64,000 bases of DNA, from positions 62,001 through 126,000 of the IMG/VR virus record IMGVR_UViG_3300043409_001318; one strand, given 5' to 3'. A program made the position numbers and the translations under genes. Each line of letters opens with the position of its first letter. The stretch's first letter is position 1. Shown here in pieces: positions 10,363 to 40,162 of this stretch. A model generated the notes under the pieces. That model had not been told where the DNA came from. It did not search any database and saw nothing but the letters and a program-made list of their open reading frames with translations. The stretch is from a virus.

Positions 10363-11586
10363 ATGAAAAATTTATTTGAAAACTGGAAGGCTTACCTCAA
10401 GGAAGCAATCGTAGATACTCCTAGTGAGAGACTGTCTGATGTTTTTGATGATAATGGGGTTATGCAAGAAAAAGTTATCGCTGTTATCAAGGACGCAAAA
10501 GAAAAACTTGATAAGTTCTTAAGCTCTCAAAATTTAAAAATAACAGAAATGTTTGTTGTTGGTGCTGCTGTTACTTATCAGTTTTCTCCTTCTTCCGATA
10601 TCGATACAACCGTTGTTATTCCAAACATAACAGATGAACAGTCGAAACAAGTTGATAATTGGATGGAAGAAAACTTAAATTATTCAAATTGGTCTGTTGA
10701 TGGAAGTAGCCGTCCTTTTCAATTTAAACCAGCTTCATCAAATATTGGATACAAAAATGTAGACGCAGCTTATGATCCTTTTAATAAGAAATGGATTAAA
10801 GAACCAAACCTTGAAACAACAAAGAAAGAATATAATCAAGTTGTTTCGGACCCGCAATCAAAAGAAAGAAAGATGTATGCCTTTGTTGAGAAACACATTC
10901 AACCATCTTTACAACAGTTGCTTAACATATTAAGCAACACAAGTTTAAATGAAAACGTTTCTGATAATATTAAAAATGCAATTAAAAATGCTTTCAAACG
11001 TTATGAAGTATTAAAAAAGAAAAGAGGTACTGCATACGGAGAAGAACCTTCACAAACAGGACGTATAAGCCAAAATTGGGGATTAGGAAACGTTTTATAT
11101 AAATTTTTAGATAGAGAAGGCTATAGTGAAGTATATGGGTATTTGAAAAAAGCAATTAAATCTGACTTCAAGATTGTTGATCAAGATTTTATAAACAATC
11201 TTAAACAAAAATTAGAAAATGTTCTCAAAGGAGAGCATGGTTATTCAGTAAATGAAACAAAGGAAAAAAATAAAATGGCTAAATTAACAGAATCATATTT
11301 AAGAGGTATGATAAAACAAGTAATGAATGAAATGCATGATATGTATGATGATTCACCAGAAGCTATGGGTAATGCTGCTGACGAGTATAGTATGGGCGGC
11401 TTTGATTCTATTGAAGAAACTGCTAAAAGATTGGGCGTTAATCCTATGAAATTAAAAGCATTTATAGAGAAAGAACAAGCTGGTGCAAGTGCTATGTATG
11501 ACGAAATGGGAGATGATCCTAATGACTATTTAGCAGAAAGAAAAAGATTTCTATCTAATTCAAGAACTGCTCCAAAACGTAGATAA
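10363..11586 (+). CDS. Tagged nucleotidyltransferase-like protein
   Basis: 407 aa. The N-terminus MKNLFENWKAYLKE is the tag shared with genes at 11655, 12924 and 13794. Residues about 64-84 (VVGAAVTYQFSPSSDIDTTV) have a Gly...Asp-x-Asp pattern of the polymerase-beta nucleotidyltransferase superfamily (Asp79, Asp81), with a possible third Asp near 134-138. Around residue 305 a second, different tag begins (MAKLTESYLRGMIKQVMNE) behind AAGGAAAAAAATAAA, so an internal start at 11275 could make a separate ~103-aa protein, or two proteins have fused. The C-terminus ends SRTAPKRR. The nucleotide-transfer substrate is unknown; a virion-packaged enzyme is inferred from the tag. Confidence 0.65.
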   Translation: MKNLFENWKAYLKEAIVDTPSERLSDVFDDNGVMQEKVIAVIKDAKEKLDKFLSSQNLKITEMFVVGAAVTYQFSPSSDIDTTVVIPNITDEQSKQVDNWMEENLNYSNWSVDGSSRPFQFKPASSNIGYKNVDAAYDPFNKKWIKEPNLETTKKEYNQVVSDPQSKERKMYAFVEKHIQPSLQQLLNILSNTSLNENVSDNIKNAIKNAFKRYEVLKKKRGTAYGEEPSQTGRISQNWGLGNVLYKFLDREGYSEVYGYLKKAIKSDFKIVDQDFINNLKQKLENVLKGEHGYSVNETKEKNKMAKLTESYLRGMIKQVMNEMHDMYDDSPEAMGNAADEYSMGGFDSIEETAKRLGVNPMKLKAFIEKEQAGASAMYDEMGDDPNDYLAERKRFLSNSRTAPKRR

Positions 11587-11610
11587 TATTTAATATTCTT
11601 CGTTAAGAAA

Positions 11611-11640
11611 AAAATCCCTAGAAGAAATTCTGGGGATTTT
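11611..11640 (+). terminator. Rho-independent terminator, copy 1 of a duplicated sequence
   Basis: A 13-bp stem with a GAAA loop (11611-11623 with 11628-11640, one G-T pair) and terminal T's. The same 30-base sequence recurs at 12446-12475. Confidence 0.8.
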
Positions 11641-11642
11641 AA

Positions 11643-11650
11643 CTATTTAA
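11643..11650 (+). promoter_or_regulatory. Candidate late promoter motif CTATTTAA, adjacent to a start codon
   Basis: CTATTTAATAAC directly precedes the ATG at 11655, with no Shine-Dalgarno between. If this is a -10 element the transcript would begin at or next to the ATG. Confidence 0.45.
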
Positions 11651-11654
11651 TAAC

Positions 11655-12266
11655 ATGAAAACACTATTAGAAAATTGGAAAAAATTTATAAATGAGCAAT
11701 CCCACATAATGGGAAACTATGAAGGACAAACTACAGAAAAAAAAGATAAACTTATTTCTTTCTTTGATGATTTGAAAAATATGAACAAAGAAAATGCAAA
11801 TCAAATTGCTTCTGTTTTATTGGGAACAAAACCTTTATATTTTAGTGCTGTAACTGTAATTCCTAATAATAAGTTCTCTCAAAAGTTTTTAGATTATTTA
11901 AGGTCTAGAAATATGATGTTTGCATCAGCTCCAAATATAATGGGAACTGGTAGTAATATATTTTTTATTGGAAATAAAGATAAAGTTGCACAAGCTTTAG
12001 AATTACAAAAAAATCCTTATATTGGTATTGAAAAAATGGGATTTTCTTCTGAGTTTAACAGCTGGGCAAAAGAAAATGCAAAACGTGAGATAGCTGCAAC
12101 TCCCGAATATCATAAAAGAATGGGAATTTTATTGGGATATGGAGAAGCTAATTCCGAGAAATTTTCTCAAGATTATATTTCAAAATGGAAAGAAGTATAT
12201 TCTCATTGGCAACAACAATCTCAAGACACTAATTCTTCTAATAGTTCTAAAACAGAAGTATTATAA
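11655..12266 (+). CDS. Tagged hypothetical protein, 203 aa
   Basis: N-terminus MKTLLENWKKFINE matches the tag family, with I-N-E as a possible prohead-protease site. The body is helical with a central beta-rich stretch (FSAVTVIPNN, SNIFFIGNKD) and a PEYHKRMGILLGYGE segment. The C-terminus is Gln/Ser/Asn-rich. There is no Shine-Dalgarno; the start abuts CTATTTAATAAC. No enzymatic family recognised. A virion-packaged protein by the tag, which is inference. Confidence 0.6.
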   Translation: MKTLLENWKKFINEQSHIMGNYEGQTTEKKDKLISFFDDLKNMNKENANQIASVLLGTKPLYFSAVTVIPNNKFSQKFLDYLRSRNMMFASAPNIMGTGSNIFFIGNKDKVAQALELQKNPYIGIEKMGFSSEFNSWAKENAKREIAATPEYHKRMGILLGYGEANSEKFSQDYISKWKEVYSHWQQQSQDTNSSNSSKTEVL

Positions 12267-12280
12267 ATTACTATTTAAAA

Positions 12281-12421
12281 ATGAATTAATCACAATATAA
12301 AGGAAGTATTGATTCTGCACTTAGAGAATTAATGACCGTTCAAGAAGCCCTTTCTAGTGTTGACGAGGATTATATGTTAAGCGAATCCCGTAAATCAAGA
12401 ACTGCTCCAAAACGTAGATAA
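12281..12421 (+). pseudogene. Eroded gene remnant sharing the C-terminal tail of the gene at 10363
   Basis: The frame reads ATG AAT TAA and then continues open to a TAA at 12419, with a tail SRKSRTAPKRR. The last residues and the following terminator are near-identical to the end of the gene at 10363. The in-frame TAA at codon 3 makes the long form untranslatable from this ATG; an internal ATG at 12332 could still give a 29-aa peptide (MTVQEALSSV at the start). A CTATTTAAAA motif precedes the first ATG. Best read as a partial duplicate decaying after a recombination event. Confidence 0.5.
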
Positions 12422-12445
12422 TCTTTAATTTAGTTTGTTAGCAAA

Positions 12446-12475
12446 AAAATCCCTAGAAGAAATTCTGGGGATTTT
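12446..12475 (+). terminator. Rho-independent terminator, copy 2 of a duplicated sequence
   Basis: Same 13-bp stem and GAAA loop as 11611-11640, including flanking A's and T's. With the shared upstream SRTAPKRR coding tail it marks a duplication. Confidence 0.8.
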
Positions 12476-12505
12476 CATTATGGGTTATATCTATCTATTT
12501 ATTAT

Positions 12506-12700
12506 ATGGGGCTTTCGCGCTTTCATGTTGGAGATCTTGTTAAGGAGTTAAACCTTGATAAGTGTGGTTTTGTTGAAAAAATTGAAGAACATTATGTAAT
12601 AAGTGAAAAAAATTTTGTATTTGTTTATTACATAAGAATGTTTCATGATGGTGCTATTGCAATCTGGTTTTATGATGAAAAACTAATTAAGATATCATAG
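12506..12700 (+). CDS. Small SH3/KOW-like protein, isolated copy
   Basis: 64 aa with FHVGDLVKEL, CGFVEKIEEHY and a terminal LIKIS, matching the array family of the first 8 kb but located among tagged proteins. ATG is preceded by CTATTTATTAT and no obvious ribosome binding site. Function unknown. Confidence 0.55.
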   Translation: MGLSRFHVGDLVKELNLDKCGFVEKIEEHYVISEKNFVFVYYIRMFHDGAIAIWFYDEKLIKIS

Positions 12701-12708
12701 AGGTGCAA

Positions 12709-12909
12709 ATGGAAAAAAATTTCGTTCGGTATAAAACGGAAGGATTGTTTGGAGATATTATAACAATTACAATTTCAAAAGAAGAAGCAATTGAAAGACA
12801 AATTAAATCTGGCGAAATAAACAATTATATTTATAATTCCAGAGAAGAAGCACTTAAAGATTTTATGAATTGTAATTGGGCTTCTTTCATTGAAGAAACA
12901 CCTTATTAA
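12709..12909 (+). CDS. Hypothetical protein, 66 aa
   Basis: ATG 12709 follows AGAGGTGCAA and is preferred to a GTG at 12703. A charged protein (MEKNFVRYKTEGLFGDI at the start) with helical ISKEEAIERQIKSGEI and EEALKDFMNCNW. It sits between an SH3-like gene and the kinase-like genes; no family recognised. Confidence 0.55.
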   Translation: MEKNFVRYKTEGLFGDIITITISKEEAIERQIKSGEINNYIYNSREEALKDFMNCNWASFIEETPY

Positions 12910-12911
12910 TA

Positions 12912-12919
12912 CTATTTAA
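12912..12919 (+). promoter_or_regulatory. Candidate late promoter motif, adjacent to a start codon
   Basis: CTATTTAATAAC immediately before the ATG at 12924, identical to the arrangement at 11643-11655. Confidence 0.45.
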
Positions 12920-12923
12920 TAAC

Positions 12924-13778
12924 ATGAAACTCTTATTAGAAAATTGGAATCGTTATCTTAAAGAAAGTGAAATAGTTTCTTATCAACAACAAGTTGGAGA
13001 TATTGAAACAATCGCTCAAGATATCTCCGATAAAGTTCAAGAGTTTATGTCCGATCATGGATACGATTGGTTACGACAAAATGCCAGCATTGTTGAAAAA
13101 GAAATTCAAGATGAAATAAGAAAAAACTTTAATCGTGATATAACAGAAGCTGGTAGTGGTTCATTTAGAACAACATATATGGTTGATAATGATTATGTTA
13201 TTAAAGTTGATTCTTCTATAAATGGTTCTGGAAAACAAATGAATAAAGAAGATGGAGAAGTTGGAAGAAATCCAAAGTATTCTTCAATCTTTCCAAAAGC
13301 TTTAGGTGTTGCTCCAGATGGTTCTTGGGTTGTATTACAAAAAGTTCATGAGATACAAGATTTAAAAACTTTAATTACTCTTTTTCCAAATAAAATAATT
13401 CCATCTACATCGTTTGGAAAATTTTATACTCAATCATTATTATCTATTGCTTTAAGTTATCAAGTAGCTGCTTTACAATACGACCAAAATCAAATGGATT
13501 TTCACAAATATCAATATGAAAGTATGTTTAAAAATTCTTTAGTAAAAGATATTGGTAGAGACGTTACTTTTCAAGAATTTATAAAATCTTGGATATCTCC
13601 TACATTTATAACGGTAGCAAAAGCTGTTATAGAATATGGTTTAGACGCTGATGAAGCTGTGCGTCCTTATAATTCTGGATATGTTGTTGAAGAGAATGGA
13701 GAAAAAAGATTTGTTATTCTTGATTCATCCGTTCAAAAAACCGTGGAAGCTGGTCTTAATGCTTTTAACAACCCATAA
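12924..13778 (+). CDS. Tagged protein-kinase-like protein, paralog 1
   Basis: 284 aa. The tag MKLLLENWNRYLKE is at the N-terminus. Residues about 77-95 (GSGSFRTTYMVDNDYVIKV) look like a glycine-rich nucleotide loop followed by the VIK lysine of kinase folds (Lys94). SWVVLQKV at about 134-141 would be the hinge. RPYNSGYV (about 247-254) with FVILDSS (about 263-269) resembles the Asn and Asp metal ligands of kinase/aminoglycoside-phosphotransferase families. No classical HRD or DFG is seen, so activity is uncertain. If packaged and injected it could act on host targets early, as T4 Alt does by another chemistry; this is inference. Confidence 0.6.
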   Translation: MKLLLENWNRYLKESEIVSYQQQVGDIETIAQDISDKVQEFMSDHGYDWLRQNASIVEKEIQDEIRKNFNRDITEAGSGSFRTTYMVDNDYVIKVDSSINGSGKQMNKEDGEVGRNPKYSSIFPKALGVAPDGSWVVLQKVHEIQDLKTLITLFPNKIIPSTSFGKFYTQSLLSIALSYQVAALQYDQNQMDFHKYQYESMFKNSLVKDIGRDVTFQEFIKSWISPTFITVAKAVIEYGLDADEAVRPYNSGYVVEENGEKRFVILDSSVQKTVEAGLNAFNNP

Positions 13779-13782
13779 GGAT

Positions 13783-13789
13783 TATTTAT
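13783..13789 (+). promoter_or_regulatory. TATTTAT motif next to the second kinase-like gene
   Basis: TATTTAT ends one base before the ATG at 13791. It overlaps the spacer after a TAAGGA that could serve as ribosome binding site, so it may be incidental. Confidence 0.3.
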
Positions 13790-13793
13790 CATG

Positions 13794-14747
13794 ATGAAAT
13801 TATTATTAGAAAATTGGAAAAGATATATTAAAGAAGAATTAAGACCAGAAGATTATGAAGATTTCCCACAAAAAGAAAATGAAGAAGCAGAAGCTTATTT
13901 AGGAAATCCAAAAGAAATTGGTGAATTTATTTATAGAGCTTTTCGTGAAGAACTTGAAAAGCAACCAGATGATACTGAAGCTCAACTTTGGTCCGATAGA
14001 ATTGTAAGCGATGCTAATTCTAAAATTAGAAAACAATTTCCAAATGTAAAGTATCTTGGTCATGGTGTATTTAGAACTGCTTTTACGTTAAACAAAAATT
14101 TAATTATAAAAGTTAATACTTCTTTTACAACTGATAGCGGGCAGTTAATGAATAAAGACGATTTTACATTAAGTCGTGATTCTAAAACTTCTAAAATATT
14201 TCCAAGAGTTTATTCTCACGATCCAAACTTTAATTGGATTGTTATGGACTTGGTTTTTCCAATTGTAACACCAAAAGAATTTTGTTCTTTCTTTCCAAAC
14301 AAATTAATTCCTTCTTCTTTGATTAGCAGTAATACTATATTTTATAGATCAATATTACAAAATTCTATAAGATATAAAGTTGCTAAAGTTGCACAAGACG
14401 ACGAAACACTGAAAAAGGTTCAATACTTACATGATGCTACTATTAAAACTACATTAGAACCAATAGTAGGTAAACCTATAACTGTGGAAGAAATAGTTAG
14501 TGGATTTGACCAAACATTTTTTGAAGTTTGTAGTGCTATTGAAAAATATAATATAAAAATTATAGAAATAAGACCAAATAATACAGGCTTCACGATTGGT
14601 GAAAGTGGTAATAAACAATTTGTAATTTTAGATTCTTCAATTGACGCAAGTTTAAAAAAAGGACTTAATGAACCAGAACCTAAAGCTGCTCCTCCAAAAC
14701 CAGATAAACAAATATTAAATGCTGTAACTGCTCCCCCTAAAAAATGA
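13794..14747 (+). CDS. Tagged protein-kinase-like protein, paralog 2
   Basis: 317 aa (318 if the preceding ATG at 13791 is used). The tag MKLLLENWKRYIKEE is nearly identical to that of the gene at 12924. A glycine-rich loop LGHGVFRTAF (about 88-97), LIIKVN with the candidate ATP-contact Lys (about 106), WIVMDLV as hinge, and RPNNTGFTIG...FVILDSS at the C-terminal side parallel paralog 1. An extra Pro/Lys-rich tail follows (EPKAAPPKP, TAPPKK). Its end overlaps the next gene as ATGA. Function as for paralog 1: kinase-like fold, target unknown. Confidence 0.6.
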   Translation: MKLLLENWKRYIKEELRPEDYEDFPQKENEEAEAYLGNPKEIGEFIYRAFREELEKQPDDTEAQLWSDRIVSDANSKIRKQFPNVKYLGHGVFRTAFTLNKNLIIKVNTSFTTDSGQLMNKDDFTLSRDSKTSKIFPRVYSHDPNFNWIVMDLVFPIVTPKEFCSFFPNKLIPSSLISSNTIFYRSILQNSIRYKVAKVAQDDETLKKVQYLHDATIKTTLEPIVGKPITVEEIVSGFDQTFFEVCSAIEKYNIKIIEIRPNNTGFTIGESGNKQFVILDSSIDASLKKGLNEPEPKAAPPKPDKQILNAVTAPPKK

Positions 14748-14962
14748 AATATAAAATTGGAGATATTGTTGAAGTAACCTTATCTCCAAAAAAAGGTTAT
14801 TCTCAAAAAACTCCACCTGTTATGGCTTTAATAAAAGATATTGATGATACAAAAGTAAATTTTAGAAAAACTGCTTATTATGTTTGGTTAATGAGTTCTC
14901 TAAATGAAACTTGTTTATGGGTAGAATTAGAAAAGTATAAAGTAAAAAAACTAACAGATTAA
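14744..14962 (+). CDS. Small SH3/KOW-like protein, isolated copy
   Basis: 72 aa starting MKYKIGDIVEVTL, with MALIKDID and LWVELEKYKVKKL: a clear relative of the array genes at 0-8.5 kb. The start overlaps the preceding stop (ATGA), so it is coupled to the kinase-like gene. Function unknown. Confidence 0.65.
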   Translation: MKYKIGDIVEVTLSPKKGYSQKTPPVMALIKDIDDTKVNFRKTAYYVWLMSSLNETCLWVELEKYKVKKLTD

Positions 14963-14970
14963 CTATTTAA
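14963..14970 (+). promoter_or_regulatory. Candidate late promoter motif CTATTTAA
   Basis: CTATTTAA just after the stop at 14962 and 37 bases before the ATG at 15000, with AAAAGGAAAATATTAT as leader and binding site. Confidence 0.45.
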
Positions 14971-14999
14971 TTTGTTATATTATAAAAGGAAAATATTAT

Positions 15000-15293
15000 A
15001 TGAAAATTACAGAAGCTAAAATACGTCAAGTAATAAAAGAAGAAATACAAAACGTATTAAATGAAATGCACAATGAAGATCCAACATCATTAGGACTTAC
15101 TGGTCCAAAAGTTGCTGCTGGCGTTGCTGGGGCTGTTGGTGTCAACGGATTAATTAAATACTTAGAACAAGCTTTAATGGAACATCCAGAATGGAGAGAT
15201 AACGTAGAAAAATTTTTAATGGCAGGCAACGAAACAATTAATAGTGTTGGTAATGCTGTCAGCGGTATGTTTGAAAATAAAAAAAGAAAATAA
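15000..15293 (+). CDS. Tagged small protein, 97 aa (class 2 tag)
   Basis: The N-terminus MKITEAKIRQVIKEE with LNEM at 20-23 is the second tag type: TE, then LR/IR-x-x-I/V-[RK], then an [L/I]-x-E. The body has a Gly/Ala-rich hydrophobic stretch (VAAGVAGAVGVNGLIKYLE) and ends in basic NKKRK. It could be a small packaged or membrane-associated virion protein. No family recognised. Confidence 0.6.
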   Translation: MKITEAKIRQVIKEEIQNVLNEMHNEDPTSLGLTGPKVAAGVAGAVGVNGLIKYLEQALMEHPEWRDNVEKFLMAGNETINSVGNAVSGMFENKKRK

Positions 15294-15300
15294 TTCTTTC

Positions 15301-15329
15301 TTGACTTTCTAATTTGACCTGCATAAGAT
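15301..15329 (+). promoter_or_regulatory. Sigma-70-like promoter
   Basis: TTGACT, 17 bases, TAAGAT. A second possible -10, TGTATACT, lies just downstream (15329-15336). Followed by TTAGGAGATAGT and the ATG at 15350. Confidence 0.55.
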
Positions 15330-15349
15330 GTATACTCTTAGGAGATAGT

Positions 15350-15835
15350 ATGTCTGTGCAGGTTGATTATTTTTCTAGTTCAAAATTTATTGTAAAAGTG
15401 GATAAAGCTGAGCGTCTAAAAGACCTTATTGAACTTCTTAAAGAAGAAGGAAATACTGGATCTGGTTATTATAGTAGTGATCATTATATAAATCTTTATG
15501 ACTATGGTAATAATGCTTTTTCTCTTCATACAGGTGGGTATTGTGATGGGAGTCCAGAACTTAAGGACACCATTATAAATGAATATAATAGCGAAGAATA
15601 TGAAAGTGAAGAAGATCAAAATAGTTATTGTGGCTCTCATAACATTTTTGATTTAATCCAAAATATGCTACAAGAAGAATCTTGGTTTTTTGTTGACTCT
15701 ACTGGATTTGAGAAAGGTAGAATTTATAATAACACTTCTTTTTATCACGCAGATGGTAGGAATGGTTCTATAAATACATGGGAACTAAAACGTAAGATCC
15801 TTGAAGAACACGGAGTAGACAGCAAACAGTTATAA
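15350..15835 (+). CDS. Hypothetical protein, 161 aa
   Basis: ATG 15350 follows TTAGGAGATAGT and lies downstream of a sigma-70-like promoter, so this start is preferred to an upstream in-frame TTG. The protein is acidic (NSEEYESEEDQNSY), with a short alpha/beta N-terminus (FIVKVDKAERLKDLIELLKE) and a Tyr/Gly-rich middle. It has no tag and its own promoter and terminator. Function unknown. Confidence 0.6.
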   Translation: MSVQVDYFSSSKFIVKVDKAERLKDLIELLKEEGNTGSGYYSSDHYINLYDYGNNAFSLHTGGYCDGSPELKDTIINEYNSEEYESEEDQNSYCGSHNIFDLIQNMLQEESWFFVDSTGFEKGRIYNNTSFYHADGRNGSINTWELKRKILEEHGVDSKQL

Positions 15836-15841
15836 TATAAG

Positions 15842-15870
15842 CCCTCGCAGAAATGCGGGGGTTTTCTTTT
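15842..15870 (+). terminator. Rho-independent terminator
   Basis: An 8-bp stem with GAAA loop (15842-15849 with 15854-15861) and a T-rich tail, six bases after the stop at 15835. Confidence 0.8.
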
Positions 15871-15878
15871 ATGAAAAA

Positions 15879-15886
15879 CTATTTAT
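15879..15886 (+). promoter_or_regulatory. Candidate late promoter motif CTATTTAT
   Basis: CTATTTAT directly after a terminator and 20 bases before the ATG at 15899, with AGAGG as binding site. Confidence 0.45.
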
Positions 15887-15898
15887 TAAGAGGTAAAA

Positions 15899-16606
15899 AT
15901 GAATATAACTCCACAACAGAAACACGTTATTGATTGTGTTTTATCAATTTTTGAAACAGGAAGAATTCCAACTACTGCTTCTTATTCTACTTGTTCTATT
16001 TTAGAAGATGGAGCAGGTATATCATATGGAAAACATCAATGCACCGATAAAGCAGGTTCATTAGATTTGGTTTGTAAGAAGTATATTAAATTAGGTGGAC
16101 AACAAGCAGAACCATTAAAACAATATATGAATTATCTTGCTACAAATCAATCTTCGAAATTTGGTTCAAGAAGAGAAACTTACCCAACTTGGCTTGTATC
16201 CTTGATTAATCTTTTAAAATCTGCTGGTCCAGATCCTTTAATGCAGAAAGCACAAGATGAAATATTTGATGTAAATTATTGGCTTCCAGCAGTTAACCAT
16301 TGTAATAATATTGGATTGAAAACCCCTTTAGGTCATTTAATTGTTTATGATAGCACAATTCATTCTGGTCCTAATGGCGTAACAATAATTCGTAATCTAT
16401 TTCCTCAAAAATCTCCTGCTAATGGTGGCGATGAAAAAGAATGGTGTCTTGCTTATATTAACGCAAGAAGAATTTGGCTTTTAAATAATCCAAACGCATT
16501 AGTTAAAAAAACAATTTATAGAATGGATGCACTTAAAGCTATTGCTGATGCTAATAATTGGGAACTTAAAACTCCTCTTGTAGTAAGAAACGTAAAAATT
16601 ACCTAA
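15899..16606 (+). CDS. GH46 chitosanase/lysozyme-superfamily-like hydrolase
   Basis: 235 aa. The N-terminal part holds SIFETG (Glu19) and LEDGAGISYGKHQ (Asp37). A Glu and an Asp 18 residues apart followed by a Gly-rich turn is the catalytic spacing of GH46 chitosanases, which share the lysozyme fold. The remainder is helical with conserved-looking aromatic residues. The substrate may be peptidoglycan or another aminosugar polymer. It could be the endolysin or a virion-associated wall hydrolase; no signal peptide or tag is seen. Transcribed from its own candidate late promoter. Confidence 0.6.
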   Translation: MNITPQQKHVIDCVLSIFETGRIPTTASYSTCSILEDGAGISYGKHQCTDKAGSLDLVCKKYIKLGGQQAEPLKQYMNYLATNQSSKFGSRRETYPTWLVSLINLLKSAGPDPLMQKAQDEIFDVNYWLPAVNHCNNIGLKTPLGHLIVYDSTIHSGPNGVTIIRNLFPQKSPANGGDEKEWCLAYINARRIWLLNNPNALVKKTIYRMDALKAIADANNWELKTPLVVRNVKIT

Positions 16607-16637
16607 TTAATAGGTAAGATTAAAGGATAAAAAAATA

Positions 16638-16919
16638 ATGTTAACAGAAAGAAGACTTAGACAAGTAATTCGCAAAATAATTATGGAAGTTACTGGTGCG
16701 GACGCAGAAAGATTTACGGCAATTGCCAATTCAGCCAGACAACAAATGGGTTCTGAACAAGAAAAATTTTTTAATAATAAATTAGGTAGTTCCGATAAAG
16801 AAAGAGCTAATAACATACAAAGGCTTCAACATTTAATTATGGGTGGAAAAGATATTGAACCTAAAGATAAGGGAGCAGTTTCTACTCTAATCCAGAAAGC
16901 ACTTGCTGAATTAAAATAA
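16638..16919 (+). CDS. Tagged small protein, 93 aa (class 2 tag)
   Basis: N-terminus MLTERRLRQVIRKIIMEV is a class 2 tag, with I-M-E as candidate cleavage site. The rest is charged and helical (GSEQEKFFNNKLGSSDKERAN) with a Lys-rich end. ATG follows AAAGGATAAAAAAATA. A short packaged or scaffold-like protein is inferred from the tag alone. Confidence 0.6.
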   Translation: MLTERRLRQVIRKIIMEVTGADAERFTAIANSARQQMGSEQEKFFNNKLGSSDKERANNIQRLQHLIMGGKDIEPKDKGAVSTLIQKALAELK

Positions 16920-16950
16920 TCCAGTTAGAGATCCCACAGAGAGGTGTTTA

Positions 16951-17358
16951 ATGGAACGTCCTTCGTGGGATTTTATTTGGTCCTCATTTGCTTCTACAAT
17001 CGCTCAACGTTCTATGGACCCTAACTTCAAGGTGGGTGCCGTAATCGTTCCAGAAGACAATACAGGTGTGCTGGCGATTGGATATAACGGCGATGAGAAA
17101 GGTGGAGAGAATTGTAGGGATAGCGAAGAAACTGGTTCATCTGGTTTTATTCACGCTGAGATAAACGCACTTATTAAGATGGATTTTAATAACCCAAAAA
17201 GAAAGAAAATGTATGTAACTCTTTCTCCTTGTAAGATGTGCGCGAAAGCAATTATTAATGCAGATATAAAAGAAGTTTATTACATACAAGAATACCGTGA
17301 TGATGCAGGAATTAAATTACTACAAAATCACGGTATTAAGGTTTGTAAGATTATCTAA
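16951..17358 (+). CDS. Deoxycytidylate deaminase family protein
   Basis: 135 aa. HAE at residues 68-70 and PCKMC at 93-97 are the zinc-binding and catalytic motifs of cytidine/dCMP deaminases, and the substrate-side GYNGDEKGGENC fits dCMP deaminases (the family of T4 cd and ComEB). It would convert dCMP to dUMP for dTMP synthesis in infected cells. Its 3' end overlaps the convergent exonuclease gene by 4 bases, so the two genes share their stop region. ATG follows GAGAGGTGTTTA. Confidence 0.85.
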   Translation: MERPSWDFIWSSFASTIAQRSMDPNFKVGAVIVPEDNTGVLAIGYNGDEKGGENCRDSEETGSSGFIHAEINALIKMDFNNPKRKKMYVTLSPCKMCAKAIINADIKEVYYIQEYRDDAGIKLLQNHGIKVCKII

Positions 17359-18329
17359 ACAGGAATGTCGGAAGGCTTTGAAGTTCTTGTTGGTCTTTCG
17401 TTTGGATCGGCTGGTGTTAAAGCGGTTATATCTGATCTTGAATCAAGATAATTAATAACTGCTTTTAATACAAGCATAAGCATGTTTACGTCTGCTAATG
17501 CATCGTGCCAACCTTTATTTACAATGTCAAAGGCATCAATTAATTTACCAAGGGAAACGGTAAAGTATGGAGCACCAGCTTTATTTACTGCTGAGAGTTT
17601 AGTTAATAAACGCTTATCTTTCTCTGATAGATTTTTTCCTTGTTCTTCATCAGCTTTAAATTGTTTTAAGGCTGGTGTAATAAACATTTTGAATACTGGT
17701 ACTGTATCTAAAACAGCATCGTCAAGAACTGGAATTCCATATCTTTGGTGCATTTCATTAAGGTATCCAACATCGAACGGAGCATTTTGAGCTACCAATA
17801 TTCTATCTGGGTATTGTTGTACAAATTCATTAAATTTTGTTAGTGCTTCTTCCATAGATTCAAAACGAAATTCTGGTGCTATACCTTTTTTCATTCTTTT
17901 CTTTGGATCTTGTGAAACACCATAACCTGTCATAGAAAAGATTTGTGGAATAGTCATAAATGAGCTTTTCTCACCAGCAGCAGCTCTTTCTGCTTGCTTT
18001 TTCTTTTCCCAACCCATAAATCCTTTTGTTCTGTCGGATAAATTAATTTTAATATTAATTTGACCTATGATTTGTGGTTCTTGACCTTCTTCAAATCCTT
18101 TTGGATCAACAGCAATAGCAGCTAATTGTGTGATTTGATTGTAATCTTTTTCTGGTTTAAGACCTGTTGTTTCTGTATCAAAGAAAATCCAAGTTTTGTT
18201 TCTTGCACTTTCAACATTATTTCTAAATTCTGGAAAACTTCCACCAATTTCATCTCTGGTCATAGTTCTTTCATTAACGACTTTTTTAAACCCTCTCCAG
18301 CTTTCCATAATCAAACCAAAATTTTTCAT
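17355..18329 (-). CDS. Tagged DEDDh 3'-5' exonuclease
   Basis: 324 aa, the only gene on the reverse strand. FFDTETTGL (Asp51, Glu53) is Exo I; AQNAPFDVGYLNEM is Exo II; HDALADV near residue 290 is Exo III, giving the full DEDDh set of DnaQ-like exonucleases. The first 20 residues, MKNFGLIMESWRGFKKVVNE, resemble the tag of neighbouring genes, with I-M-E as possible cleavage site. A DNA exonuclease packaged in the head and injected could act on host DNA; otherwise it may serve repair or recombination. Its promoter would lie in 18330-18380, shared with the divergent gene at 18381. Confidence 0.8.
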   Translation of the reverse strand: MKNFGLIMESWRGFKKVVNERTMTRDEIGGSFPEFRNNVESARNKTWIFFDTETTGLKPEKDYNQITQLAAIAVDPKGFEEGQEPQIIGQINIKINLSDRTKGFMGWEKKKQAERAAAGEKSSFMTIPQIFSMTGYGVSQDPKKRMKKGIAPEFRFESMEEALTKFNEFVQQYPDRILVAQNAPFDVGYLNEMHQRYGIPVLDDAVLDTVPVFKMFITPALKQFKADEEQGKNLSEKDKRLLTKLSAVNKAGAPYFTVSLGKLIDAFDIVNKGWHDALADVNMLMLVLKAVINYLDSRSDITALTPADPNERPTRTSKPSDIPV

Positions 18330-18380: not shown

Positions 18381-18815
18381 ATGAACACAAAAAAATGGTA
18401 TAAATTTCTTCGCGAACAACAAGAAGAAGAAAAAGAAAATGGTATAGCATTAACAAAAAACGAAGAAGACATTAATGCTGACCCAATTGAAAAACATTCT
18501 GGATTAGATCCAATTGTTACAGATGATATTTCTGTATTTCAACTTGTTGTTAAAGCAGAATTTCGTAAAGGATCAAAAGTTCTTCTTACACAATTCAAAG
18601 ATATTATTAGAGGTATTGTTTCTGTTACTACAGTTGGAACGGAAGATCTTCCAGATGCCTCCGAAATGTATGATAGAAGGAATCTTAATGTTAAATTTGA
18701 ATTAGAACGTGGTGAGAATATCGATGAATATATGAGAGCCGTTCTTATTCCTCAATTAAGAAAGATTAGAGGTATGAGAGTTCTACATTACGGAAAAATA
18801 GAAAAAGTAAGATAG
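18381..18815 (+). CDS. Tagged hypothetical protein, 144 aa
   Basis: N-terminus MNTKKWYKFLREQ is a divergent tag with L-R-E. An acidic linker (EEEKENGIALTKNEED) leads to an alpha/beta domain (VFQLVVKAEFRKGSKVLLTQF, LNVKFELERGENIDEYMRA), which suggests a small ferredoxin-like fold, as inference. The gene diverges from the exonuclease gene across 51 bases containing a GTATTTAAAAA motif. Function unknown. Confidence 0.6.
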   Translation: MNTKKWYKFLREQQEEEKENGIALTKNEEDINADPIEKHSGLDPIVTDDISVFQLVVKAEFRKGSKVLLTQFKDIIRGIVSVTTVGTEDLPDASEMYDRRNLNVKFELERGENIDEYMRAVLIPQLRKIRGMRVLHYGKIEKVR

Positions 18816-18844: not shown

Positions 18845-18859
18845 ATCTTAGGTATCTAA

Positions 18860-19159: not shown

Positions 19160-19632
19160 TGAAAAAAGAACGTTGGTTTTCTGGCGATTACAAAGAAACA
19201 AATTTAGAAGAAATATTTGCTGATATTACAAATCACTCCAAGAATAAAGGAAAGATTTATATTGGATCTGACTCATACGTCCAAAAACAAAATTGTGTGT
19301 TTTGTTGTGCGATTGTTCTTCACGGAGCAGAAGGTCAAAGTGGTGGAAGATATTATTATCATAGGTTTTTAACTCATAAGAATAATTTTCCTTCTATGAC
19401 AGCAAGAATTACTCATGAAGTTCAAAAGTCAATTGAGATTGGAATGCAAGTTGGTCAAGAATGTCCTAATGTAAAAGTAGAACTTCATTTAGATATTAAT
19501 AATGATAAAAGAATGTCTAGTCAAAAAATGGCAGAATCTATGACAGGATGGGTTAAAGGACTTGGATTTGATTGTAAGATAAAACCAGAATCTTGGGCTT
19601 CATCAAAGATAGCAGATATACACACCAAATAA
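19159..19632 (+). CDS. YkuK/DUF458-like RNase H-fold protein
   Basis: 157 aa. IYIGSDSYV with the following VFCCAIVLHG is the opening strand and first acidic residue of an RNase H-like fold; VELHLDIN and SKIADIHTK match later conserved positions of the DUF458 (B. subtilis YkuK) family. Such proteins are predicted nucleases of unknown substrate. The gene ends at a terminator. Confidence 0.65.
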   Translation: MKKERWFSGDYKETNLEEIFADITNHSKNKGKIYIGSDSYVQKQNCVFCCAIVLHGAEGQSGGRYYYHRFLTHKNNFPSMTARITHEVQKSIEIGMQVGQECPNVKVELHLDINNDKRMSSQKMAESMTGWVKGLGFDCKIKPESWASSKIADIHTK

Positions 19633-19643
19633 AAAAAGATTTT

Positions 19644-19677
19644 CCCCTTAACTATTTAATGTAGTTAGGGGGTTTTT
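19644..19677 (+). terminator. Terminator whose loop carries a CTATTTAAT motif
   Basis: An 11-bp stem (19644-19654 with 19662-19672, one G-T pair), 7-base loop and T run. CTATTTAAT (19652-19660) lies across the stem-loop junction, overlapping the candidate late promoter motif for the gene at 19679. Confidence 0.75.
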
Positions 19678-19678
19678 C

Positions 19679-19948
19679 TTGTTTGAAAAAGATAATATTT
19701 TTGGTGGTTCACTTGTTTCTAAATTTGATGTTGGTGATATAGTTTCTTGGCCTGTAATTAAAAATTATTATGACCAAGATGCAGACACTGTAATTAAAAT
19801 TGGTATATTAGCAGAACTAAAAAAAGTAATAAGATCTGAAAGACCTGTTATGCTTGCTAAGGTTCTTGATTTAGAAGCAGGAGTAGAAAAAGAAATATTA
19901 CTTGTTTCTATTAGTTTAGTATCAAAAGCAAAAGAAAATAGAGTTTAG
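19679..19948 (+). CDS. SH3/KOW-like protein, 89 aa, probable TTG start
   Basis: The conserved part is SKFDVGDIVSWPV with LISLVSKAK-type ending (SISLVSKAK), clearly of the array family. No ATG is available upstream of it in frame; TTG 19679 lies right behind the terminator T run, so initiation is doubtful. It may be made from a late transcript starting within the hairpin. Function unknown. Confidence 0.5.
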   Translation: MFEKDNIFGGSLVSKFDVGDIVSWPVIKNYYDQDADTVIKIGILAELKKVIRSERPVMLAKVLDLEAGVEKEILLVSISLVSKAKENRV

Positions 19949-19952
19949 AGGA

Positions 19953-19960
19953 CTATTTAA
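19953..19960 (+). promoter_or_regulatory. Candidate late promoter motif, adjacent to a start codon
   Basis: CTATTTAATATT immediately before the ATG at 19965, like the copies at 11643 and 12912. Confidence 0.45.
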
Positions 19961-19964
19961 TATT

Positions 19965-21851
19965 ATGAAATTTATGCTAAATAAACAAACTGGTGTCTTT
20001 ATTTTAAGAGAAGATATATTTGATAGAATCTCTCGTCAAGCTAAGGCTGAGGTCGGATCAGAAATAGCTAGTGAAAATGCCGCTGCTTCTGATAGAGCTG
20101 CGGCATTTTTAAAATCAATTGATAGGGTTAGAGATAATTATATCAAACAACTTTATGAGAAAAAAGAAACTGATAAACCTTCTTATTTAACTATTATTCC
20201 TTTGTTGGTTGATAAAGCCACTTCTAATAATTTAATAAACGAAATTAAAAAAAGTATTGATAAAGTTAACGCTGAATGTACACCATTTTTTACTGATATA
20301 AGAGATAAAAAACAAGTTGATTATAATAAACTTATTAATGCGTTACAGATAAATCTTAAAGGTACAGTTGCAAGATTAGTATTAGAAGCCATATCTGGAC
20401 CACCATTACAAACAGAAGTAATATTTCAATCAATTATAAAAAATTATATTGCTTTTTTAATAAACGAAACTTTATTAAAAGATTTATCTGATGAAGATAA
20501 AAAAAATGTTTTTGGAAATGAGGAAAATTTTAAAAAATTTCAACAAATTTTTAGTAAAATGTTAATGGCAACAGATGAAGAAATTAAAGTTTATCAAGTT
20601 TCTCTTCAAAAATATAATATAGCAAAAGATAAATTAAAAACAAAAAGTCCAGAAGAAGCAAAAGAAGAAGAAGATACAAAAAGAGCAGAAAAAAAAGAAC
20701 AAGATGAACTTAGACTATATTTAACAGGAAAGAATAAAGAATTAGCCCGTTTTGTTCGTATATATGGTATTCTTTCAAGAACAGAGGGCATAGGTGATCA
20801 AGATAAACATCAACAGGTTATTGACGACTTTGAATCATATATTGATGAATTTTCTGATTTAATTGATAGTAATGAAAAACTTGATAAAGAAGGATCAAAA
20901 GATCGGATGGAACTGATATTAAATTCTATAGAGATGAAATATGGTTCTCTTAAAGATGAGCTTAAAGAATTAAATGCAGCAAAAGCAGTAAAAGAATCAA
21001 AAACTCTCAAAGAATATAGAGAAGAAATTAACAATCTTCTTATTCCTCACATGCAGAAACAACTTGGTTTTAATCATCCTCCAACAATTAATTTTGCTGA
21101 TGATCAAGGAAACGCACAAGATATGTTTGGAAAAACAGCATATTATAATCCAAGCACAAGCGAAATAACCGTTTATATAACCAATAGACACCCAAAAGAT
21201 ATCATGCGTTCTGTTGCTCACGAAGTAATACACCACGCACAGAACCAAAGAGGAGAGTTTGAGAACTCATTTAATCTTGGTGAAGAAGGTTACGCACAAA
21301 ACAATTCCCATTTAAGAAGTATGGAAGAAGAAGCTTATTTAAGCGGAAACATGATATTTAGAGATTGGGAAGATCAATTTAAAAAACAAAGGAACCAAAA
21401 AACTATGGTAAACGAAAATAATTTAAGAGCCAAGATAAGATCTATGATTGTTGAAGAAATCGCCAATCAAACCGAGAACAAGCCAGCCAAAGAACATGAT
21501 AGTAATTGCGAATGTGAAGATTGTAGTAAGAAAAGAACATTCTTAAAGAATAAGGGTGTTAAAAACATAGCTGAGAAAGTTGAAAAAGAAATTATGCCAC
21601 TTAAAGAATGGAGAAATATGGAATTAAACTCATTACTTCTTCATAGATTTGGTCTTGTTTCTCCACAAGTTTTAGGTGAGAAGAAAAAAATGCCTATGAA
21701 AAAAGATATAGAAGATGCCGATGGTGATGGGGATACAAATGAAAAAGTACCAGCTTTCTTGAAAAAAGGAAGTGCTAAAAAAACTCCAACCAAGAAAGGT
21801 AAAGTCCCACCACAATTTTTAAAAGGTAAGAAAAAAGATGAAAGCAAGTAA
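19965..21851 (+). CDS. Large HExxH metallopeptidase-like protein with internal tag
   Basis: 628 aa. The N-terminus MKFMLNKQTGVFILRE contains L-R-E, a possible cleavage site. Residues about 30-360 are largely helical, partly coiled coil (KEQDELRLYLTGKNKE). SVAHEVIHHAQ at about residue 414 is a HExxH zinc-peptidase motif, with a Glu-rich helix (RSMEEEAY) that could supply a third ligand. At residue 481 (ATG 21405) a class 2 tag begins, MVNENNLRAKIRSMIVEE, opening a C-terminal part with four Cys (CECEDC is its core), a DADGDGDTNE acidic loop and a Lys-rich end. So it is a fusion or carries a nested gene. Possibly a virion or prohead peptidase; not assignable further. Confidence 0.6.
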   Translation: MKFMLNKQTGVFILREDIFDRISRQAKAEVGSEIASENAAASDRAAAFLKSIDRVRDNYIKQLYEKKETDKPSYLTIIPLLVDKATSNNLINEIKKSIDKVNAECTPFFTDIRDKKQVDYNKLINALQINLKGTVARLVLEAISGPPLQTEVIFQSIIKNYIAFLINETLLKDLSDEDKKNVFGNEENFKKFQQIFSKMLMATDEEIKVYQVSLQKYNIAKDKLKTKSPEEAKEEEDTKRAEKKEQDELRLYLTGKNKELARFVRIYGILSRTEGIGDQDKHQQVIDDFESYIDEFSDLIDSNEKLDKEGSKDRMELILNSIEMKYGSLKDELKELNAAKAVKESKTLKEYREEINNLLIPHMQKQLGFNHPPTINFADDQGNAQDMFGKTAYYNPSTSEITVYITNRHPKDIMRSVAHEVIHHAQNQRGEFENSFNLGEEGYAQNNSHLRSMEEEAYLSGNMIFRDWEDQFKKQRNQKTMVNENNLRAKIRSMIVEEIANQTENKPAKEHDSNCECEDCSKKRTFLKNKGVKNIAEKVEKEIMPLKEWRNMELNSLLLHRFGLVSPQVLGEKKKMPMKKDIEDADGDGDTNEKVPAFLKKGSAKKTPTKKGKVPPQFLKGKKKDESK

Positions 21852-22068
21852 ATTTTTAAGATTAAGATCTAAATTAGAAAAAGCTTCTAATATAATTACA
21901 GAAGCTACAAAAGAAATAATTATTGTAGTAGAACAAGCAGTTAAAGAAGTAGAGAAAGTTGTAGAAGAAGAAATAAAAGAAGAAGTAGTAGAAGCAACAT
22001 CAATTATACAATCTGTAGTTGAAGAAGTCAAGCCAACAATAAAAAAGAAAGTGGGAAAAGATGCCTAA
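21838..22068 (+). CDS. Coiled-coil protein, 76 aa
   Basis: Starts within the last codons of the previous gene. A basic N-terminus (MKASKFLRLRSKLEKA) is followed by a long Val/Glu/Lys amphipathic helix (VVEQAVKEVEKVVEEEIKEE). Almost certainly one continuous helix or coiled coil. It could be a scaffold or core protein; no family recognised. It overlaps the next gene by 8 bases. Confidence 0.6.
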   Translation: MKASKFLRLRSKLEKASNIITEATKEIIIVVEQAVKEVEKVVEEEIKEEVVEATSIIQSVVEEVKPTIKKKVGKDA

Positions 22069-22351
22069 CACTAATTTATTAGATAATATTACATGGAATT
22101 TTATTAAAGAAAGCGCACAACCAAGCGTTAGATCTTATATTCTTTCAATAGAAGAAAAATTAAAGTCTCTTAAACCATCTACTACTTCGGACGGTGATAG
22201 AGTTGCTACCGCTCTAAGAGACTTGAAAGAAGTAAAGAAGCATGTTAATAGAATAGAAGAAGAATTAGAACAAGAGAAGAACGATCATAAGGATCTTAAG
22301 TTTAGATATGAGAAGTTAAAGTCTAAAGCAAAAGCATCTAAGGAAGAATAA
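22061..22351 (+). CDS. Coiled-coil protein, 96 aa
   Basis: N-terminal ITWNFIKESAQPSVRSYIL, then a heptad-like C-terminal half (KHVNRIEEELEQEKNDHKD). The start overlaps the previous gene and the stop is one base before the ligase fusion gene, so all three are translationally linked. Function unknown; structural or adaptor role possible. Confidence 0.6.
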   Translation: MPNTNLLDNITWNFIKESAQPSVRSYILSIEEKLKSLKPSTTSDGDRVATALRDLKEVKKHVNRIEEELEQEKNDHKDLKFRYEKLKSKAKASKEE

Positions 22352-22352
22352 C

Positions 22353-24362
22353 ATGGGTCTAAGCAGCATACCACACGTTTATGATGATAAAGAATTAAAG
22401 TATGAAGAAGTAGTAGAAATACTTACAAAAGCTGCTAATGGTAGAATTCAAGGAACTGAAAAAACAGATGGTCTTAATTTGTTTCTTGGTTATAAAGATG
22501 GTCAACCAAAAGCAGCAAGAAACTTTACTGAAATAAGCCAAGGTGGTTTAGATGCTGAAGCTTTTGCTGATAGAGAATTTAAAGCTGATGATCACATAAA
22601 AGAAATATTTAGAGCAGCTTTTAATGCTTTCTCTAATGTTGTTAAACACTTAAATCAAGAACAAATTAATATTTTGTTTGGAACTAATGGAAATACATTT
22701 TTAAATTGTGAGATTATCTCTGGTAAAACAAATGTTATTACATATGATACACAAGTTATATTAATTCATCGTTCTGGTCACAAAGAATTTAATACTGCAA
22801 CTGGGAAAGTTGAGTCAGTTAGAGAAGATAAACAAAAAGCAATTTCTATTATGATAAGTAACTTTAATGAAGTTATGCAGCAAATGTTAAACGGAACAGA
22901 ATTTAAAGTTCAGCAAGATAGATTAGAAAGACTACCAGCATTAGAAGACCAATCAACATTAGCCAATACAATTCAAAAACTAAAACAAGCTGGTTTTAAA
23001 GAAGGTATGACTATTAATGATTACCTCTTACGAAAGTCTCTTGCATATGTTAAAGAGAAACTACCATCCTTAAATAATGAAATAACAATAGAAGTAGCAA
23101 AGAAGATAGTTGGAACAAAAGGAGCAGATAGTATTACTGTTCTTAAAAGTTATGTTAATCAAAATCCTAAATTTGTTGAAGAATTACAAAATTTAGTAAA
23201 AAGAAAAGAAGAAATAGTTGATGAAATTACTTTTCCTATTGAAGATGCTATACATGATTTTACTGTAGAAATATTAAGTAAGTTAAATTCACAATTCGTT
23301 CAAGATAAAGAAAAGTCAACAGAAGTAATAAAACAAGAATTAGCAAAGAAAGTAAAAGAATTACAAAACTATAATGGACCAGATAGAGAAAAGGTACATA
23401 ATAAATTAAAGAAACAATTATTAAAGTTAAAACATATAGATAAGATATCAAGTCCAACTGAAGGATTTGTTTTTAATTATAATAGTAAGATGTATAAGTT
23501 TACTGGTAATTTTGCTCCAGTAAATCAAATAAGAAATATGAAGATTAACCAAGAAACAGATACTTCTGGTGCTTCAAGTATGAACTTTAATCTTAAAGAG
23601 AATAAATCTAAAATTGGTATATTTCCGGGTTCTTTTAGACCACCACATAAAGGTCATTTAGATCTTATTAAAAAAGCCTTACCAAATTACTCTAAAATAA
23701 TTATATTAGTCTCTCAACCAGAAAAGAATATGAGATCAGATATTTCAGCAGAACAATCAAAACAAATATTTGATGAATATACAAGAGGTCTTCCAGTAGA
23801 AACAAGAACTTGTGGTAAAAGTTCTCCATATGTAGAAGCTGCTGATATGATTAAAAGTGGAGAAGGTAATGTTGTGTTAACTTCCGACAAAGAACCAACA
23901 AAATTTGATAAGTTTAATTTTCCAAAAGAAGTTATACATGCAGAACATAATATTAGCGCAAGTCAAATGAGAAACATTATTGGATCTGAAAAAACAAGAG
24001 AAGAAAAGAAAGCAGAATTATTAGGATATTTACCAGAGAAAATTGATAGTGAAATAATCTTCAATGTGTTATTAAATCAAGAAGATCCTATTTCGTTACA
24101 AGAGATATTTTCAATGATAGAAAACTTACCAATAAAAGAAAATAATTCTTCTTCAAATACATTGAAAATGGAAGATATATTTGGTATATTAGATGAAATG
24201 TCTGGTGCTGCTGTTGGTTCCAGTATGTCTGCTGGTGCGGTTGAAGGGGCATCTATGCTTACGTCTAAACCACAAAGAAAAAAGAAAAAAACAAGAACTT
24301 ATACACTTGAAGAGATAATTAATATGTCTAACAATTATCTAAAGGAATCTAAAAATGATTAA
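22353..24362 (+). CDS. RNA-ligase-like / HxGH nucleotidyltransferase fusion protein
   Basis: 669 aa. The N-terminal half carries covalent nucleotidyltransferase motifs: EKTDG (Lys37) as motif I, NCEIISGK (about 118-125) as motif III, EGFVFNY (about 370-376) as motif IV and YKFTG (Lys382) as motif V. These are the marks of ATP-dependent RNA/DNA ligases and capping enzymes. From about residue 420 a second domain starts, GIFPGSFRPPHKGH, with HKGH (432-435) of the cytidylyl/NMN adenylyltransferase superfamily, and ISASQMR (about 530) fits its second signature. T4-like phages use separate ligases and NadR/NMNAT-type enzymes, so a single chain with both could link nucleic acid end repair and NAD or nucleotide metabolism. 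A short helix ending in YLKE near the C-terminus resembles the tags. The substrate is unknown. Confidence 0.7.
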   Translation: MGLSSIPHVYDDKELKYEEVVEILTKAANGRIQGTEKTDGLNLFLGYKDGQPKAARNFTEISQGGLDAEAFADREFKADDHIKEIFRAAFNAFSNVVKHLNQEQINILFGTNGNTFLNCEIISGKTNVITYDTQVILIHRSGHKEFNTATGKVESVREDKQKAISIMISNFNEVMQQMLNGTEFKVQQDRLERLPALEDQSTLANTIQKLKQAGFKEGMTINDYLLRKSLAYVKEKLPSLNNEITIEVAKKIVGTKGADSITVLKSYVNQNPKFVEELQNLVKRKEEIVDEITFPIEDAIHDFTVEILSKLNSQFVQDKEKSTEVIKQELAKKVKELQNYNGPDREKVHNKLKKQLLKLKHIDKISSPTEGFVFNYNSKMYKFTGNFAPVNQIRNMKINQETDTSGASSMNFNLKENKSKIGIFPGSFRPPHKGHLDLIKKALPNYSKIIILVSQPEKNMRSDISAEQSKQIFDEYTRGLPVETRTCGKSSPYVEAADMIKSGEGNVVLTSDKEPTKFDKFNFPKEVIHAEHNISASQMRNIIGSEKTREEKKAELLGYLPEKIDSEIIFNVLLNQEDPISLQEIFSMIENLPIKENNSSSNTLKMEDIFGILDEMSGAAVGSSMSAGAVEGASMLTSKPQRKKKKTRTYTLEEIINMSNNYLKESKND

Positions 24363-25107
24363 CGAGAAAGAAGCAGTAAGATTGTATATTAGAAAAGCAA
24401 TACAATTATATAAAGAAAGCAAAAAACAACAAGAAATTTTAGAAGAAACAAAATTAAGACAACTTGTTCGTGGTCTTATCTTAAGAGAAGTAGCAGAGGA
24501 CCAACCAAAGCACGCTTCAACTGGTATTAACGTTCTTGAAGATCTATTAAAAAAAATTATTCCAGTTCTTCAAGCAGACTTCAAAATGATTACAACCTCC
24601 GAACAACAAAGAAAATCATTTAGAGCACATTTAGTTAATGCTATTCAAAATTCATTATCACCAGAATTAATGTATGTTCTTTCCGACAAAGAAAAAGAAC
24701 AACTTAAAGAAGCAGCAACAATTAAGGTAGATGATCCAGATATGGAAAAATTTATTGATATTGAAGAACCAGTAGACGAACCAGAAGAAGAAGTTTCACC
24801 AGAAGAACAATTTTCAAAAGGACTTGAAGATCAAAACTTAGATACAACTGGTAGAAATATGGCTATGGATACTTTTAACAAGGTTGAAAAAGGTATTCTA
24901 AGTGCTTATGAACTTCTTGACGACGCAAAAGATAGAGAGTTGTTCTACGATTATCTTATTACAAATATGAAATTATACTTTGATAAATTTGAAGAAGAAA
25001 TGAACCCATCTGGTATTACTGAACCAACCACACCAGAATACGAAGCAGAGAAAGATCGTAAAGAAGCAGAAGATACAGGAACAGCACAAACTCCAGAAGG
25101 TCTTTGA
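24355..25107 (+). CDS. Tagged acidic protein, 250 aa
   Basis: A class 2 tag lies internally at about residues 29-46 (ETKLRQLVRGLILREVAE), after a helical N-terminal extension, with L-R-E as candidate cleavage site. The rest is strongly acidic (EEPVDEPEEEVSPEEQ) with helical segments. It overlaps the ligase-fusion gene by 8 bases and is coupled (TGATG) to the next. Acidic, cleavable and helix-rich is the profile of prohead core proteins; this is inference. Confidence 0.6.
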   Translation: MINEKEAVRLYIRKAIQLYKESKKQQEILEETKLRQLVRGLILREVAEDQPKHASTGINVLEDLLKKIIPVLQADFKMITTSEQQRKSFRAHLVNAIQNSLSPELMYVLSDKEKEQLKEAATIKVDDPDMEKFIDIEEPVDEPEEEVSPEEQFSKGLEDQNLDTTGRNMAMDTFNKVEKGILSAYELLDDAKDRELFYDYLITNMKLYFDKFEEEMNPSGITEPTTPEYEAEKDRKEAEDTGTAQTPEGL

Positions 25108-40160: not shown

Positions 40161-40162
40161 TT

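Follow-up and report, generated by a model that had tools for sequence, protein, structure and literature searches.

In phage T4, short N-terminal tags, the capsid-targeting sequences, direct proteins into the core and are cut there by the protease gp21 at L/I-x-E (PMC9026906, PMC3012670), the published motif placing the cut after the Glu (PMC9026906). The internal proteins of T-even phages that wear such tags have been described as diverse defence proteins, with the tag as their only common part (PMC9026906, PMC3012670). In phiKZ and SPN3US, a prohead protease likewise cuts N-terminal propeptides after Glu in inner-body and ejection proteins, and many of the packaged proteins are ejected (PMC10052503, PMC5694885). 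Here, we analyze a stretch of 64,000 nucleotides (hereafter, the window), which comprises bases 62001-126000 of the 184,352-base IMG/VR record IMGVR_UViG_3300043409_001318, the remainder of which was also read. A first-pass annotation of the window had noticed a short tag shared by at least ten unrelated proteins and had likened it to the T4 targeting sequences. We find two short and mutually interchangeable N-terminal tags in this uncultured T4-like phage, as well as in many relatives from the environment, namely class 1 (consensus M-K-x-L-L-E-N-W-x-x-[FY]-L-x-E) and class 2 (consensus [IL]-T-x-x-x-L-[KR]-x-I-[IV]-[KR]-x-x-[IL]), which look like a shipping label that would load diverse enzymes into the head for delivery to the next host cell.

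How do these tags compare with the described systems? As with the capsid-targeting sequences of T4 IPI, IPII and IPIII, which are 10-19 residues long, they stand at the N-terminus of otherwise unrelated proteins, end in L/I-x-E, are encoded alongside an S77-family prohead protease and precede cargo that varies among relatives. The likeness extends to actual T4 sequence: namely, IPII and IPIII both open with MKTYQEFIAE followed by A (read from NC_000866), which has the same design, only the overall pattern MK...E-[FW]...[LI]-x-E being alike. On the other hand, the sequences here are different from those of T4 and much more conserved (LLENW...FLxE; TxxxLxQIIxEEL), two classes occur in a single genome, 16 proteins are tagged as opposed to T4's few, the bodies behind the tags number in the hundreds across relatives, and tags also occur internally, in apparent fusion proteins. 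With the propeptides of phiKZ and SPN3US the tags have in common the N-terminal position and a predicted cut after Glu, but those propeptides are mostly 100 or more residues long and have the motif S/A-x-E or A-x-E, whereas the tags are 14-22 residues long and end in L/I-x-E. We would describe them as a new form of the T4-type capsid-targeting design, with the same plan and a different sequence, more numerous and more conserved.

Two tag classes and their spread

The tags were recovered without any motif given in advance. Namely, when the N-termini of all 238 predicted proteins of the source genome were compared all-against-all, 51 pairs scored 36 or more, whereas residues 32-61 gave 4 such pairs and shuffled N-termini gave 3. 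This excess is partly due to small 'KIGDIV' proteins, a separate family, and class 1 and class 2 emerged as clusters of their own, the other two large ones. In leave-one-out profiles each tag member scores 10.7-37 bits, and shuffled proteomes yield 0.35-0.5 chance matches of at least 13 bits per genome. What is more, the pattern W..[FYH][LIVM].E occurs within the first 30 residues of 7 proteins, as compared with 0.4 expected. The tagged set is larger than was originally noticed: the whole genome holds 8 class-1 and 8 class-2 N-terminal tags, the bodies behind them being for the most part unrelated (12924 and 13791 are paralogues), and the search of related contigs, which had been proposed together with that of the genome, extended the set to hundreds of them. 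The window contains five of the eight class-1 and two of the eight class-2 tags, not counting the short class-1 form at 18381.

Searched for as a DNA pattern, MKxL[L]ENWxx[FY][LI], the class-1 start matched at least 119 stretches in IMG/VR (among the matches listed, one contig often has several class-1 starts, with as many as six in 12.8 kb), and a permuted order of the same residues gave 0 matches there. Bacterial and archaeal genomes totalling 264 Gb gave 9 matching stretches, and the sole genuine-looking cellular case is one 15.9-kb contig of a marine metagenome-assembled genome with two matches. How often a class occurs in loci that it served to select has no weight as evidence; across classes, the two tags predict each other, with 73 class-2 tags in loci chosen by class 1 and 34 class-1 tags in loci chosen by class 2, as opposed to 1 and 0 in controls. 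Among cultured phages, a search with the class-2 consensus gave as its sole match an uncultured 484-kb record (E=9), and a search with class 1 gave nothing. The cultured relative Flavobacterium phage vB_FspM_immuto resembles the source phage in that it has an S77 protease gene and that at least four of its proteins open in a class-2-like manner (e.g. MKKSQLRxIIK). It differs in having no typical class 1 and in a third common start, MENFDLKKFLVENKLTxNSKLLxE, found on four proteins (L096:1803, L098:3806, L098:17631 and L098:18632; loci L096-L099). It is a cultured phage in which the packaging idea could be tested.

The tags behave as modules. Homologous bodies in two phages can bear tags of different classes (loci L199/L213 and L115/L262), as in the pair formed by MKILFENWRKFLTE-GNYAGP... 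in L115 and MKITNEQLKQIIKEELSAVLGE-GGVAYSG... in L262. In addition, a nucleotidyltransferase-like protein opens with MKLLLENWRKFLNE-GGNVF... in one contig (LNE-GGNVF at the junction), and its untagged immuto orthologue starts with MGGNVF, so that trimming would restore the native start. Several homologues that had seemed untagged in fact had worn tags with the same L-x-E, and for this reason only clear cases are cited here. Finally, synonymous codon choice is almost as free within the tags as within the bodies, which argues that it is the peptide that is kept.

Tag ends and the prohead protease

Where does conservation end? After the bodies were filtered for redundancy, about 188 class-1 and 308 class-2 proteins were left. 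The Glu of L-x-E in class 1 (82% Glu) carries 2.3 bits of information, and the positions that follow it drop to 0.6, 0.1 and 0.05 bits. As a guard against selection effects, the tag end was tested with profiles truncated before the site and in loci not selected by the class in question: [LI]-x-E stands at the tag end in 67% of class-1 and 62% of class-2 proteins, as opposed to 6% and 9% in downstream windows, an enrichment of 7-11 times over downstream sequence. In the source genome, the motif lies in or near every N-terminal tag, much as the first-pass annotation had stated for nearly all of its cases; at 18329 (reverse strand) it takes the form of IME-9, the end of the tag being VNE instead. 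An L-x-E or I-x-E also occurs further forward in each class (LLE-NW, I-K-E), so that cleavage at two places is possible.

A search of the genome for a gp21-like protease, suggested at the outset as a check, located an S77 prohead protease outside the window, at genome 154097-154690 (E=8e-29), with the GELDHP and SSRG catalytic blocks intact in an alignment with T4 gp21. A T4-type head module, also outside the window, includes a large terminase and a gp20-like portal (PF07230, E=4.5e-76), and a gp23-like major capsid protein is found at genome 166708-168465. Four of the 16 tagged proteins, equivalent to half of the class-2 tags, lie at most five genes from the protease (p=0.002). In relatives, within loci selected by S77, tags are most frequent in the genes at -2, -1 and +1 relative to the protease (23/77, 26/79 and 27/73, respectively), and the gene directly after the protease starts with a class-1-like or a class-2 tag, depending on the phage. 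Where loci were chosen by S77 alone, N-terminal tags open 122 of 1319 proteins, as opposed to 1 of 1678 where thymidylate synthase was used to pick control loci (a ribonucleotide-reductase pattern was dropped as too degenerate). Moreover, S77 is encoded by all 13 tagged contigs of at least 125 kb, as compared with 6 of 13 controls of that size (Fisher p=0.005), and by 17 of the 20 tagged contigs of at least 100 kb.

We consider it quite probable that both tags are capsid-targeting sequences, functionally like those of T4 IPI-III, and we infer core binding, packaging, cleavage, injection and the function of the cargo along the following lines. Namely, the tag peptide would dock onto the scaffold core while the prohead assembles, and the protein behind it, whatever its kind, would be enclosed in the head. 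The S77 protease would then cut C-terminal to the Glu of an [L/I]-x-E located within the tag or at its end, and a near-native protein would be freed in the head beside the DNA, from where it could be injected. Class 2 also stands on the products of genes around the protease, likely core or scaffold proteins, and on small cargo, and class 1 mainly on dispersed, enzyme-like cargo. Only tentatively, and with more doubt than belief, do we extend this to a portable two-label cargo code of T4-like phages from the uncultured aquatic majority, in which one tag would mark chiefly core proteins and the other chiefly effectors, labels would pass as modules between proteins, and internal labels would mark polyproteins that the prohead protease would split, in the head, into individual effectors.

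Weighing the capsid-targeting reading

Several observations weigh against capsid targeting. L-x-E is a short motif, and in class 2 conservation fades more gradually, with the terminal L-x-E at the exact column in only about a quarter of cases. S77 is present in only 4 of the 17 tagged fragments of 50-99 kb, a low rate that plausibly fits fragments often missing the head module, and the control contigs were not matched by clade, so that part of the S77 link may reflect ancestry. When T4 head proteins were compared with the tag profiles, the maximum was 8.8 bits and there was no match, making the resemblance one of design and not of sequence homology. What is more, neither class was found in the annotated relative Mel-JY01, and the literature searched held no virion proteomics for the source phage or for any phage with these tags, nor any such papers on immuto or Mel-JY01.

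That said, the other explanations fare worse. One could argue that the tags are signals for localization elsewhere, such as the replication compartment, the membrane or the tail, or that they are degrons, L-x-E being incidental. Indeed, they are predicted to be helical in a low-confidence model, and such helices have many targeting uses. However, a signal of this kind is unlikely in view of the enrichment of the protease motif at the tag end, the clustering of tags at the prohead protease and their near absence from cellular genomes. Could the N-termini instead recruit the phage's own GroEL-like chaperonin, the tagged proteins being difficult folders? There is such an open reading frame (ORF) at genome 32752-34320, the N-terminus of T4 gp23 directs proteins to GroEL, according to passages in PMC10052503, and the phage's own gp23 has a related LLKKW...LLEG stretch. 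Yet a folding role, which we deem very unlikely, leaves unexplained why conservation ends at the protease motif, why the tags are linked to S77 and why tagged proteins of about 80-110 amino acids surround the protease.

The tags might also be the incidental product of a nucleic-acid element, such as a translation start enhancer or a recombination site. Some codon preference does exist in the tag (e.g. CGA at column 8, CTC at column 2), which hints at spread of the tag DNA by shuffling, but the synonymous variation described above is difficult to reconcile with such an element, and tags encoded by two unrelated DNA sequences substitute for one another on a single body. Similarly, the paralogy of 12924 and 13791, as well as the recurrence of some tagged families, is what one would see if the tagged proteins were paralogues with a shared N-terminal domain, but common descent does not agree with the number of bodies left after the redundancy filter, with their different Pfam folds or with the coexistence of tagged and untagged orthologues. 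Given the tag swaps on homologous bodies and the free synonymous variation, the paralogy and DNA-element readings were dropped, and we accord each of them next to no probability.

Tagged proteins and their significance

If the tags do target the capsid, what would they bring into it? Among representative tagged proteins, Pfam matches include Nudix, GNAT acetyltransferase, zeta toxin, guanylate kinase, AAA kinases, protein kinase, DnaQ-like exonuclease, amidase, L,D-transpeptidase, TseH-like, DnaJ, pentapeptide-repeat and HAD-type proteins; peptidoglycan enzymes are part of this cargo, and most representatives have no Pfam match. The functions first proposed for the tagged bodies of the window fared unevenly. 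As a sequence assignment, the exonuclease at 17355-18329 is certain (PF00929, E=4.6e-13), and its relative in locus L123 bears a typical class-1 tag. The kinase-like proteins stand as such by fold match: the model of the 12924 protein (mean predicted local distance difference test score, pLDDT, of 76.8, with the tag disordered) has APH(2'') and PsiK as its best PDB matches, with E~1e-4 and a low TM-score, and both it and the 13791 protein keep the invariant Lys, Asn and Asp. No conserved catalytic-loop Asp is seen in the alignment of the kinase-like proteins, however, which makes their activity doubtful. Relatives of the 13791 protein were absent from the collection scan, and more distant ones were found among the loci analyzed here. 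The nucleotidyltransferase and the metallopeptidase proved to be weak calls. Namely, the 10363 protein matches PF01909 with E=0.0068, below the cut-off, and its single-sequence model (pLDDT 43) is uninformative, and the HEVIHH protein at 19965 matches no Pfam family.

The positions of the tags are collected in Table 1. Most of the starts initially assigned to the two classes hold, including the class-2 starts at 15000 and 16638 and the divergent class-1 forms at 18329 (reverse) and 18381, relatives of the latter protein opening with similar short forms (MSYKWNSFLTE, MLKKWKQFLSE). The fourth class-1 start, placed at 13794, lies at 13791, the former being the second Met. Internal class-2 elements had been placed in three ORFs; the one in the ORF at 10363-11586 is solid and looks like a second tagged protein fused on. 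Taken singly, those assigned to 21405 and 24355 do not exceed chance, since about 1-2.5 matches of this strength would arise at random; homologues of the 24355-25107 protein in relatives have repeated class-2-like segments. Outside the window, the protein at genome 2218-3585 has an internal class-1 tag between a 2'-5' RNA ligase/LigT-like (2H-phosphoesterase-like) part and a dual-specificity-phosphatase-like part. A Met before the tag fits a tagged gene fused to an upstream one, the C-terminus of the ORF is class-2-like, and the whole may be a polyprotein for the prohead protease.

Table 1. Tags of the two classes, in window coordinates unless marked as genome coordinates
Element	Position	Strand	Protein and evidence
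Class-1 tag MKNLFENWKAYLKE	10363..10404	+	407-aa protein 10363-11586; N-terminus clustering and profile
Internal class-2 tag LTESYLRGMIKQVMNE	11284..11331	+	Within ORF 10363-11586, Met before; 25.1 bits, with ~0.2 chance matches >=15 bits per genome
Class-1 tag MKTLLENWKKFINE	11655..11696	+	203-aa protein; clustering and profile
Class-1 tag MKLLLENWNRYLKE	12924..12965	+	Kinase-like protein 12924-13778
Class-1 tag MMKLLLENWKRYIKE	13791..13835	+	Kinase-like protein 13791-14747, paralogue of 12924; phrog_4301, E=7e-7
Class-2 tag MKITEAKIRQVIKEEIQNVLNE	15000..15065	+	97-aa protein; 45 bits; clustered without bias
Class-2 tag MLTERRLRQVIRKIIME	16638..16688	+	93-aa protein; 41.5 bits
Divergent class-1 tag MKNFGLIMESWRGFKKVVNE	18270..18329	-	RNase T/DnaQ-like exonuclease 17355-18329; leave-one-out 12.7 bits
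Truncated class-1-like tag MNTKKWYKFLRE	18381..18416	+	144-aa protein; W..[FYH][LIVM].E match
Possible internal class-2 element, marginal	21420..21458	+	628-aa protein 19965-21851 (HEVIHH motif); 10.3 bits
Possible internal class-2 element	24439..24489	+	250-aa protein 24355-25107; 11.8 bits
Further class-1 genes beyond the window	genome 9402, 10702, 46105
Further class-2 genes beyond the window	genome 23153, 147539, 153401, 154705, 155122, 156293

Some other features of the region deserve mention. About 14 small proteins with a common N-terminal [KD]IGDIV/VGDI motif lie at genome 49602-81679 (in the window, e.g. at 6630, 7856, 8093, 14744 and 19679), apparently a paralogous family dispersed across an accessory region, and three proteins at genome 59603-61824 have in common a CxxC...GHNRRxC zinc-knuckle-like N-terminus. 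The window also encodes a DUF2201 putative metallopeptidase with a VWA-like domain (8894-10063, E=1e-18), a glycosyl hydrolase family 46 (chitosanase-like) protein (15899-16606, E=4e-20) and, at 31271-46315, a long run of glycosyltransferase-, epimerase- and methyltransferase-like ORFs with a GC content of 0.24-0.33, which recalls a surface glycan locus.

Proteins injected together with the phage DNA decide the early take-over of the host and counter-defence, T4 IPI and Alt being the textbook cases, and to our knowledge they are known for very few phages. A literature search found no description of the class-1 or class-2 motifs. If the tags are capsid-targeting sequences, a 14-residue signature would predict the injected proteins of a large uncultured T4-like group, providing several hundred candidates in a list that could be tested by proteomics, and the tags themselves, such as MKLLLENWRKFLNE and MKITKSQLKQIIKEELEEVLNE, would be new labels for loading proteins into phage heads. 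Finally, should the two-label code also be true, sequence alone could suffice to list the injected proteins for hundreds of uncultured phages.

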